Assembly: GCA_034190875.2 (NCBI GenBank)
Contig: CM067355.1
Location: forward strand, 34,655,277 to 34,719,276
From: Urechis unicinctus
Lineage: Eukaryota > Annelida > Polychaeta > Xenopneusta > Urechidae
Direction: 5' to 3'
Length of the DNA stretch: 64,000 nt
Both the position numbers and the translations under genes were made by a program. Below the pieces are notes generated by a model. The model was not told where the DNA came from, searched no databases, and was given only the letters and a program-made list of their open reading frames with translations. Every line of letters starts with the position of its first letter. Position 1 is the first letter of the stretch. Positions 27,992 through 46,025 of the stretch are shown piece by piece.

Positions 27992-30900
27992 ATGGAGAAC
28001 TTTGTTCTCTACGAGGAGGTGGGTAAAGGCGACCATTGTGTTGTCTATAAAGGCCGCAGGAAAGGCACCATCAACTTTGTGGCCATCCATTGCATTGAGA
28101 AGTGCAAGCGATCTCACATCACAAATCTTGTAAGTAGGTTATGTTTGATCACGCTAGATATGAAGATTCCAGAGTTGCGCATAATACACATGGTGGTTTA
28201 TTCTACATCCATCACATCTCCTTTCTGTTCCAGGTCCGTTTGACTCACGAGTTGGATCACGAGAACATTGTGCACTTTTATGAATGGTACGAGACAAGCA
28301 ATCATCTCTGGCTGGTCGTTGAACTCTGTACAGGTCAGAACATCTCAGGCTGGTCGTTGAACTCTGTACAGGTCACTGACATCTCTGGCTGGTCGTTGAA
28401 CTCTGTACAGGTCAGTAACATCTCTGGCTGGTCACTGAACTCTGTACAGGTCCGTTTGACTCTCTGTTGGTCACTGAACTCTGTGTCAGCACTTTCTATG
28501 AATGGTCACTGAGTACAGGTCAGTAACATCTCTGGCTGGTCGCTGAACTCTGTACAGGTCAGTAACATCTATGGCTGGTCACTGAACTCTGTACAGGTCA
28601 GTAACATCTCTGTCTGGTCACTGAACTCTGTACAGGTCAGTAACATCTCTGGCTGGTCACTGAACTCTGTACAGGTCAGTAACACCTCTGGCTGGTCACT
28701 GAACTCTGCACAGGTCAGTAACATCTCTGGCTGTTCCGTTGGACACATGGGATGAAGTGGAATCATAATGGTGTAATCACAATGGTGTAATCATAATGGT
28801 GTAATCTTAATGGTGTACTCATAACGGGTCTGCAGGAGGAAGTTTAGAGACGGTCATCTCGCAGGACGACCATTTACCTGAGAGCTCCGTAAGGAGGTTT
28901 GGCCTTGACATTGTCCAAGGTCTGCATCATATACATTCCTTGGGAATCATCTTCAGTGATATTAAGCCATCCAAGGTTGGTGCAAATTTCCCTTACTAGA
29001 TTGCATACTTAGTGTAGACTTCAGCTTCAATCAGGATGTCATTGTTGCATGATTTTGTTGCCGTGTCTCAGATTCTCCTCGATGGGCCGGGGGTCCTCAA
29101 GTTTGCAGACTTTGGTCTCAGTCGAGTTGAGGGTGAAAACTTGGAGGAATTGTTTGAGCAGTTTGCCAGTACCAGTATGCTCCTAGCTTGTAGTTCATAT
29201 TGTTCTATGTTGTACGTTGAGATTGCTGCTGGTGTCACATTGTAGTTTACCTTTTACTGAACTTTTGTAAGCCTCATTCTTGTTAATTTGCATGATTGAT
29301 TGCCTAGGTGAGCAGTGGGAGGGAAAAGACAACTGTTCCACAGAAGCTCAATCTGATGTGCCTCCTCATATCAAATTACTTGGTAAGTCTGGGATTCCTG
29401 ACTCACTCACTCTGGCATTACCTCTCCTATCACACTCATTATCGGGCATTACCTCTCCTATCACACTCATTATTGGGCATTACCTCTCCTATCACACTCA
29501 TTATCTGACATTACCTCTCCTATCACACTCATTATCGGACATTACCTCATTTATCATATCACACTCATTATCTGACATTACCTCATTTATCACACTCATT
29601 ATCGGACATTACCTCATTTATCACACTCATTATCGGACATTACTATACTATATGTACCCATTGCTTTCTCAGTAGTCACAATAGATAGCTTGTCAAAACA
29701 TTGTCCCCAGACATGAAACATCTGTTGTATGTTTTCTCCTTGATAGGTTCACCTCCATATATGGCTCCTGAGGTCATAGAAGGCAAAGGTCATTGCTTTG
29801 GTAGTGACCTTTGGTCCCTTGGCTGTGTCATATATGAAATGTTTTGTGGCCATCCTCCGTTTTTGGCTGATAGCTACACACAACTTGTGGAGAGAATCAC
29901 CACCAGAGACTTCCCACCGCCAAAAGTCAAAGGTAATTATAGGCCTTCTTATCGCTGACAGCTTGGGGCTATCTTAGAAGAAACAAAAACATTACTGTAG
30001 AAGAGCTTGTGGATTAAAAGCTCTCATGTGATGGTACCTTTGTATGGCAGGTTCTCATGTGATTGTACCTTTGTAATGTGATCGTACCTTTGTAAGATAG
30101 GTTCTCATATGATCGTACCTTTGTATGGTAGGTTCTCATGTGATGGTACCTTTGTATGGCAGGTTCTCATGTGATCGTACCTTTGTATGGCAGGTTTTCA
30201 TGTGATCGTACCTTTCTATGGCAGGTTCTCATGTGATCATACCTTTGTATGGCATTGTGATTGTACCTTTGTATGGACGGTTAGTGATCGTACCTCATAT
30301 GTACCTTTGTATGGCAGGCATTCATGTGATCGTAGGTGTATCTTCTCATGTGATCGTACCTTTGTATGGCAGGTTCTCATGTGATCGTACCTTTGTATGG
30401 ACGGTTCTCATGTGATCGTACCTTTGTATGGCAGGTTTCATGTGATAGTACCTTTGTATGGTAGGTTCTCATGTGATCGTACCTTTGTATGGCAGGTTCT
30501 CATGTGATCGTTCCTTTGTATGGCAGGTTCTCATGTGATCGTACCTTTGTATGGCAGGTTCTCATGTGATCGTACCTTTGTATGGCAGGTTCTCATGTGA
30601 TCGTACCTTTGTATGGCAGGTTCTCATGTGATCGTACCTTTGTATGGTGGGTTGTCATGTGATCGTACCTTTGTATGGCAGGTTCTTATGTGATCGTATC
30701 TTTGTATGGTAGGTTGTCATGTGATCGTACCTTTGTATGGCAGGTTCTTATGTGATCGTACCTTTGTATGGCAGGTTCTCATGTGATCGTACCTTTGTAT
30801 GGCAGGTTCTTATGTGATCGTACCTTTGTATGGTGGGTTGTCATGTGATCGTACCTTTGTATGGCAGGTTCTCGGATGTCATCCAAGCCATCACCGGAGT

Positions 30901-45900: not shown

Positions 45901-46025
45901 ATGACAATGGGTGTAAGTTTGAATAATTGTCTGCTACTGTCCATCTCTCTGCCTCCAGTTCTCATGCGGAGGTTGCACTTTCAAGTTTGGCATCCGACGT
46001 CCTCAAGATGACTGGTTATATGTGA
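27992..46025 (+). CDS. ULK4 pseudokinase
   Basis: STK36/Fused-related pseudokinase scaffold, in vertebrates linked to ciliogenesis and neural development. 32 coding exons: 27992-28129, 28234-28333, 28836-28975, 29072-29174, 29308-29382, 29747-29932, 30868-30946, 31113-31384, 31511-31580, 31766-31979, 32387-32447, 32726-32954, 33038-33116, 33305-33496, 33607-33681, 34057-34143, 34474-34656, 34948-35075, 35487-35626, 35789-35910, 36015-36123, 37903-38049, 38273-38411, 40431-40523, 40771-40819, 41577-41682, 43066-43232, 43486-43620, 43871-43978, 45453-45527, 45746-45834, 45959-46025. All phases close at 1318 aa (human 1275). It opens [20 protein letters not shown]. The beta-3 lysine is His33 (VAIHC), HRD is FSD, but DFG is intact (FADFGLSR). 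APE and DLWSLGC are present. An acidic linker with DNPK leads to ARM/HEAT-like helical repeats ([24 protein letters not shown]). Exon 8 could instead end at 31339 in the same phase. Introns are packed with minisatellites, listed separately. Confidence 0.97.
28334..28735 (+). repeat. Array of exon-2 donor junction, 39-bp unit
   Basis: About eleven tandem copies of the last 31 nt of exon 2 (TGGCTGGTCGTTGAACTC then TGTACAG) plus the start of the intron. Most copies carry CAG|GTCAGT, a better donor consensus than the authentic CAG|GTCAGA at 28331-28339. The first copy is offset by 38 bp and later ones by 39 bp. Confidence 0.95.
29400..29650. repeat. ULK4 intron 5 minisatellite, 31-bp unit
   Basis: About eight copies of ATTACCTCTCCTATCACACT plus CATTATCGGGC. 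I see no exon sequence in the unit. Confidence 0.92.
30040..30867 (+). repeat. Array of exon-7 acceptor junction, 31-bp unit
   Basis: About 27 copies of TATGGCAGGTTCTCATGTGA plus TCGTACCTTTG. The authentic acceptor of exon 7 is TATGGCAG|GTTCTC at 30860-30873, so every unit holds a copy of the acceptor and the first six bases of the exon. Confidence 0.95.
32025..32306. repeat. ULK4 intron 10 minisatellite, 41-bp unit
   Basis: Seven copies with TAGTACAGGTCAATAGAATC and ATGATTATCTTAATA. The unit contains CAGGT but no sequence from the flanking exons. Confidence 0.93.
34137..34275 (+). repeat. Array of exon-16 donor junction, 56-bp unit
   Basis: Three copies, the first being the true end of exon 16 (CTCTCACC|GTGAGTAAACCT, GT at 34144). 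The others (GT at 34200 and 34256) repeat CTCTCACTGTGAGTAAACCT. Confidence 0.95.
34755..34947 (+). repeat. Array of exon-18 acceptor junction, about 55-bp unit
   Basis: Three upstream copies of the junction TGGACAG|GAGTTTGTGACTG with about 27 nt of exon 18, ahead of the real acceptor (AG at 34946-34947). Two copies keep CAG (ending 34782 and 34837); the third reads CCG, so its acceptor is lost. Confidence 0.95.
35150..35486 (+). repeat. Array of exon-19 acceptor junction, 44-bp unit
   Basis: Seven copies of GCTGCCAG|GCTGGTCATGT before the authentic acceptor (CAG at 35484-35486), so each holds the acceptor plus the first 11 nt of exon 19, then TTAACCCTTTATGTATGAAT. Confidence 0.96.
36785..37320. 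repeat. ULK4 intron 21 minisatellite, about 38-bp unit
   Basis: About 14 copies of GTCATGATTCATGCTCCCTA plus TGTCCCCTGCTCCCTGCTG. It is not next to an exon. Confidence 0.93.
38125..38268. repeat. ULK4 intron 22 minisatellite next to exon 23
   Basis: About six degenerate copies of AGATAGTGACCTGTGACCTTA. The last runs directly into the exon 23 acceptor (GTGTGCAG). Confidence 0.88.
38412..39030 (+). repeat. Array of exon-23 donor junction, about 56-bp unit
   Basis: About ten copies of CTGCYCCA|GTGAGTTG plus CCTGATATAAACACCACC and CTAACGCCTTACCTCACACA. The authentic donor is CTGCCCCA|GTCAGTTG (GT at 38412). Most decoys carry GTGAGT, a stronger match to the donor consensus than the real site. 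Confidence 0.95.
39200..40235. repeat. Low-complexity array, CACACCTACCCCTACTCAYC
   Basis: About 1 kb of roughly 18-21-bp units in ULK4 intron 23. Pro/Thr/His-rich open frames of up to 387 codons cross it in all three forward frames and are artefacts. Confidence 0.93.
40930..41330. repeat. ULK4 intron 25 minisatellite, about 32-bp unit
   Basis: About 12 copies of GGTTATACAATCATAGCATG plus GTACTAATAG. Confidence 0.92.
41745..43035. repeat. ULK4 intron 26 minisatellite, about 59-bp unit
   Basis: More than 15 copies, several truncated, of GTGTGGTTATTCCACCATAT plus TAACGGTTATTTATATCAGG and TTGATGGTTGTTCTATCTG. The last part fades into a shorter TATTGATGGTTATCCCACC repeat close to exon 27. A poly-C run (41728-41742) precedes it. 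Confidence 0.93.
43979..45135 (+). repeat. Array of exon-29 donor junction, 31-bp unit
   Basis: More than 25 full copies, with many truncated ones, of GTCACCTGACAATATG|GTAATAATCA. The last 21 nt of exon 29 plus its donor (GT at 43979) make up the unit, so the whole intron start is a field of donor copies. Confidence 0.95.

Follow-up and report, generated by a model that had tools for sequence, protein, structure and literature searches.

How do splice sites come to lie inside the units of intronic minisatellites, and do they do so more often than the dimensions of introns and repeats predict? The ULK4 gene of Urechis unicinctus raises this question. We analysed a 64,000-nucleotide (nt) stretch of DNA (the window) on contig C14 of the genome assembly, which comprises 1.19 Gb in 926 contigs. 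On the plus strand, 32 coding exons at 27992..46025 could be joined into a single 1,318-codon frame encoding 1,318 amino acids, with GT-AG at all 31 introns. Pfam searches with this model matched PF23606 HEAT_ULK4 (6.6e-70, residues 845-1053) and PF00069 Pkinase (1.2e-56, residues 6-285), and the presence of both the kinase domain and the ULK4 HEAT repeats places the gene in ULK4. Exon use was deduced from the reading frame. At seven of the 62 internal exon ends, the unit of a tandem array spans the exon/intron boundary. We favour, with a probability of roughly 0.77, the reading that these are 'mirage'-type minisatellites, produced by tandem duplications that fell at random in a genome rich in minisatellites, and tolerated where they straddle a splice site.

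Junction-spanning arrays in ULK4

We compared the sequence with itself across all 62 exon ends (lags of 12-259 nt, ungapped, score of at least 5 on either side). Seven ends and no others had a copy that crosses the junction, namely the donors of exons 2, 16, 23 and 29 and the acceptors of exons 7, 18 and 19, and all seven fall inside arrays called by Tandem Repeats Finder. An earlier note on this sequence had named boundary-spanning units at seven of the 62 ends; the scan recovered precisely these, and their arrays and registers were confirmed. Of 2,576 points drawn at random from the non-array intronic sequence of other genes, the scan matched 47, a background rate of 1.8%, so that about one chance match would be expected among 62 ends.

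The spanning arrays, all on the plus strand, differ in unit and register. Over the donor of exon 2 (exon end 28333) lies an array of 39-nt units at 28303..28733 that takes in 31 nt of the exon. The donors of exons 16 and 23 are both covered by arrays of 56-nt units with 8 nt of exon (34136..34306 with exon end 34143, and 38404..39022 with exon end 38411), and that of exon 29 (exon end 43978) by a 31-nt array of ~39 copies at 43957..45099 with 22 nt of exon. Among the acceptors, that of exon 7 (exon start 30868) lies in a 31-nt array of ~26 copies at 30026..30873, that of exon 18 (exon start 34948) in a 55-nt array at 34755..34973 with 26 nt of exon, and that of exon 19 (exon start 35487) in a 44-nt array at 35206..35497 with 11 nt of exon. 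At the best lag, the exonic part of the unit ranged from 5 to 31 nt, and the donor matches of exons 16, 23 and 29 had one mismatch each. The range of 6-31 nt given earlier holds except at the acceptor of exon 7, where the scan counted 5 nt (6 by eye). The array of exon 2, the only one queried, had a single match in the 1.19-Gb genome in a search that scores the best candidates only and ignores very common words. Judging from this search, the array does not resemble a dispersed repeat and probably grew locally.

Other plus-strand arrays called by Tandem Repeats Finder lie within introns and cross no junction: a 31-nt array in intron 5 (29416..29643), a 41-nt array in intron 10 (32029..32306), a 39-nt array in intron 21 (36799..37310), a 20-nt array in intron 23 (39273..40226), a 32-nt array in intron 25 (40938..41323) and a 59-nt (and 20-nt) array in intron 26 (41760..43053). 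By the gene model, a 22-nt array in intron 22 (38140..38267) stops 5 nt short of exon 23 without crossing it. The sole exonic array of ULK4 is an in-frame 24-nt (8-codon) repeat at 43500..43565 (plus strand), entirely within coding exon 28 (43486-43620). In all, 17 arrays in 14 array-bearing introns occupy 7,579 of the 14,077 intronic nt (54%). Minisatellites make up 42% of the ULK4 span and 16.8% of the surrounding 284 kb, 20 kb of which reads N. They are densely packed in a block at 30-80 kb in window coordinates.

Observed and expected numbers of spanning arrays

Two null models were used to estimate how many spanning arrays chance would produce. Null A moved every array (17 in all) to a random place in its own intron, with entry into an exon allowed up to 31 nt. 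In null B, the founder unit was dropped randomly on the intron at its estimated pre-expansion length, which was ~56-403 nt in 12 of the 14 array-bearing introns, with units of 14-59 nt. Given the 54% intronic array content and the mostly short pre-expansion introns, 3.6-4.3 of the 17 arrays are expected to span a junction. Free rotation of the arrays over the gene covered a mean of 24 exon ends, compared to seven observed; the difference reflects the avoidance of exons by arrays, and this unfair null was not used as evidence.

Several results weigh against placement by chance alone. The seven spanning arrays exceed the 3.6 expected under null A (P(≥7) = 0.041) and the 4.3 expected under null B (P = 0.084), and with units of at least 30 nt only (12 arrays, a post-hoc cut) the expectations fell to 2.9 (A) and 3.7 (B), with P of 0.009 and 0.033, all of these P values being uncorrected for the gene having been picked for its pattern. 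The pre-expansion intron lengths are themselves estimates, and the comparison sample of 15 arrays from other genes, described below, is too small to rule out a twofold excess. In addition, the word CAGGT occurred in three of nine non-spanning ULK4 units (0.7 expected), and on either strand in 17 of 125 non-spanning units of the 284-kb region, compared to 6.8 in mononucleotide shuffles, a null blind to neighbour effects.

A search of the genome for Myosin_head gave 97 matches in many genes. Eleven loci from these matches and a minus-strand kinase gene neighbouring ULK4 formed a comparison set of 12 genes, in which the splice junctions of 58 introns (116 ends) could be located; 25 of 83 pairs of neighbouring high-scoring segment pairs were dropped for template gaps. 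Some of the 58 introns have weak splice sites (for example, L024 1372/1799, L033 3673/3819 and L034 3644/4001) and were retained. These introns held 15 arrays, two of which span a junction, compared to 2.6 (A) and 2.2 (B) expected, so that outside ULK4 arrays span junctions about as often as chance predicts. One is a 46-nt array of 2.9 copies, found by the junction scan, over the donor that follows the kinase gene's HRDLKSPN motif, with 23 nt of exon (L002:873-1007, gene on the minus strand of contig C14, just past position 64000 of the window). The other covers a myosin acceptor in L032, with an 18-nt unit and 10 nt of exon. A third scan match, in L025, involved a doubtful AT-rich splice call and no array in the tally, and was dropped. 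With L025 the scan matched three of the 116 ends, where its background rate predicts ~2; since the scan was near background in these genes, only the two matches inside Tandem Repeats Finder arrays were counted.

When ULK4 and the 12 other genes were pooled, 9 of 32 arrays spanned a junction compared to 6.2-6.5 expected (P 0.14-0.16), and the spanning rates of ULK4 (7/17) and the other genes (2/15) did not differ significantly (Fisher P 0.12). The earlier note had held that random minisatellites should not line up with exon edges so often. ULK4 itself bears this out weakly, at seven compared to 3.6-4.3, but an excess far above chance finds no support in the intron geometry or in the other genes. 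There may be a real excess of junction-spanning arrays, up to about twofold; a systematic excess at splice junctions is not backed by the comparison genes, and a modest one is possible.

Such an excess would be expected if splice-site sequence, or the process of splicing or transcription, promoted tandem duplication, with exon edges as preferred founding points. The ULK4 counts (P 0.04-0.08, and 0.009-0.033 for the longer units) and the CAGGT words in its non-spanning units speak for this origin, whereas the 12 other genes show no excess and the pooled count gives P 0.14-0.16. CAGGT was present in 17 of the 125 non-spanning units, where local non-array DNA predicts 10.9 (z 2.0); it ranked only 45th of 512 5-mers and was rejected as a special seed word; outside ULK4 it was found in 14 of 116 units, compared to 10.2 expected. 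Furthermore, the position of the junction within the unit showed no departure from uniform across the nine spanning arrays (Kolmogorov-Smirnov P 0.46). Together, the seed and position data give no indication that splice words are favoured as seeds, and the first reading of the earlier note, that expansion begins at CAGGT words, is not sustained. We consider a promoting role of splice sites or splicing unlikely, and similarly doubt that splice junctions are true founding hot spots in this lineage, used at ~1.5-2 times the geometric rate, for example because transcription or the processing of RNA exposes DNA at exon edges. If they were, decoy arrays would continually supply material for new splice sites and introns.

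The kinase gene occupies 60100-64000 of the window and extends beyond it on the minus strand. We take it to be MAP3K12/13-like (DLK/LZK) from exon-by-exon alignment, at 50-85% identity, to a human MAP3K12 fragment. Six other arrays lie in its resolved introns, 39-330 nt from exon ends. The window also contains an aldo-keto reductase gene at 6.4-7.5 kb (minus strand), an AAA ATPase gene at about 18.1-22.3 kb (plus strand) and a gene for an EF-hand protein, presumably CAPSL-like, at 54.3-54.9 kb (plus strand). A cluster of long open frames with a Polinton-like look (polymerase-, integrase- and capsid-like by eye only) lies on contig C14, ~80-95 kb beyond the right-hand end of the window. Among the myosin loci, a heavy chain gene on contig C6 around 25.853-25.864 Mb has several adjacent matches to one and the same short part of the head (profile about 103-152), which may represent mutually exclusive exons.

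Decoy splice sites and alternative explanations

Under the mirage reading, short DNA segments would duplicate in tandem with breakpoints blind to gene structure, and the arrays, judging from their present form, would then expand by slippage or unequal exchange. With short introns and units of this size, about a quarter of founding duplications would take in an exon edge by geometry alone. At a donor the 5'-most copy, and at an acceptor the 3'-most copy, would restore the original exon end, while the remaining copies would stay behind in the intron as passengers, in the form of decoy splice sites. The outermost copy would be the one used in splicing, as the reading frame suggests. Because this edge copy stays intact, the mRNA can be unchanged and duplication across the edge can be tolerated. 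Within an exon, in contrast, a segment duplicated in tandem changes the protein. The earlier note had also proposed that repeats anchored at an exon edge are the ones that survive. This fits better than its first reading insofar as straddling duplications are tolerated, but not in the sense that they are favoured.

We searched for decoys as ungapped copies of the seven junctions with up to five mismatches in 20 nt, a threshold that misses more diverged copies. Of 72 decoys found, 70 kept GT or AG. Use of these 70 would leave the frame intact in 20 cases, all of which gain a stop; with in-frame, stop-free products from none of the 70, the outermost site is the single one that encodes the protein in this frame analysis. 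By a matrix built from ULK4's own splice sites, 53 of the 70 decoys equalled or outscored the real site. Strength by this score therefore does not set the real site apart, and position is likely the cue that marks it. The exon-derived columns of the decoys were as variable as the intron-derived ones (63/1071 compared to 75/1585, Fisher P 0.21), as expected if decoys are passengers; a function of the exon-derived parts was sought through conservation and found no support in this comparison.

These results bear on the idea that the rows of decoys are functional, tuning splicing or yielding alternative ULK4 forms. Their strength would suit such a role, but the failure of all 70 to give an in-frame product without a stop, and the lack of extra conservation in their exon-derived columns, make it quite improbable. 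Unproductive splicing at decoys may, in a related way, cut the mRNA level. More improbable still is that the arrays are assembly artefacts. They are at most about 1.3 kb long, their copies differ among themselves (identity to the real unit of 0.68-1.0 in the rows examined), and other genes of the assembly also contain arrays, built from different units. At 43.8 Mb the contig has the size of a chromosome, in an assembly of 926 contigs for 1.19 Gb, and later sequence data upheld such repeats in an amphioxus gene (PMC3902484). Equally hard to credit is that the introns were themselves born from the arrays, as recent gains through tandem duplication of exon sequence carrying AGGT (the Rogers model). 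This route was proposed for mirages (PMC3087553), and intron 2 would measure only ~56 nt once its arrays are removed. However, a newborn intron should bear the same exon word at both ends, and in the seven introns a crossing copy was found at one of the two ends only, within a scan reach of 259 nt for introns of 291-2,019 nt.

Relation to known repeats at splice junctions

The earlier note knew of no description of such a pattern, but 'mirage' minisatellites of amphioxus have already been described (PMC3087553, from 2010, after Canestro et al. 2002; PMC3902484) and proposed as a route to new introns. The genes concerned are Adh3, the globins BflGb6 and BflGb9, PGBD5 and troponin C; PMC3902484 adds PGBD5, cites troponin C and reports repeats upheld by later data. 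As in ULK4, the mirage unit spans the exon/intron boundary at donors and acceptors alike, many but not all repeats bear AG/GT signals, and the authentic edge is the coding one. Both features were found here, the boundary-spanning unit at 7 of 62 ULK4 ends (and in 2 of 15 arrays elsewhere) and the AG/GT words in 70 of 72 decoys. Unit sizes are 10-72 bp and about 150 bp in amphioxus and 31-56 nt in the spanning arrays of ULK4. At 1.19 Gb, the present genome is about twice the size of that of Branchiostoma. Searches of it for COX1, mollusc haemocyanin and the annelid erythrocruorin linker gave no match; the latter two gave none in control genomes either, and these negatives carry no weight for the placement of the host.

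Related phenomena are known from other genomes. In human segmental duplications, internal tandem repeats with units averaging 30 bp lie at exon-intron boundaries and alter gene structure (PMC2812944); they share with ULK4 the minisatellite units at such boundaries. The human case is linked to recent paralogues in primates and to alternative transcripts, and for amphioxus, length instability and RT-PCR (reverse transcription PCR) were reported, the latter, with Adh3 data, suggesting that mirages do not disturb regular splicing (PMC3087553); the ULK4 arrays, in contrast, are known from the genomic sequence of one assembly alone. Intron gain by tandem duplication, as in potato RdRp (PMC4974935), likewise involves duplication able to copy splice-site words, whereas the ULK4 repeats sit at existing introns. 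Junction-spanning units were not found in the accessible part of a paper on earthworm intronic minisatellites (PMC12783039), no related work was found on ULK4 and minisatellites, and a genome-wide test of minisatellite/junction overlap was not found in a literature search that mostly left subscription papers outside.

ULK4 makes weak evidence for a new mutational mechanism, because its count is near the geometric prediction and the phenomenon is already known. It does illustrate how a heavy minisatellite load can scatter copies of splice sites through a gene with the protein frame intact. Its seven junctions also provide natural tests, all within a single transcript, of the way in which the spliceosome selects one site from rows of similar copies, most of them scoring no lower than the real site. 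The observation is confirmed, and ULK4 is a new, rich example of the mirage type already described. It differs from the amphioxus cases in having seven spanning arrays in one 32-exon gene, and if the host belongs to another phylum, the occurrence of mirages beyond lancelets would be a modest gain.

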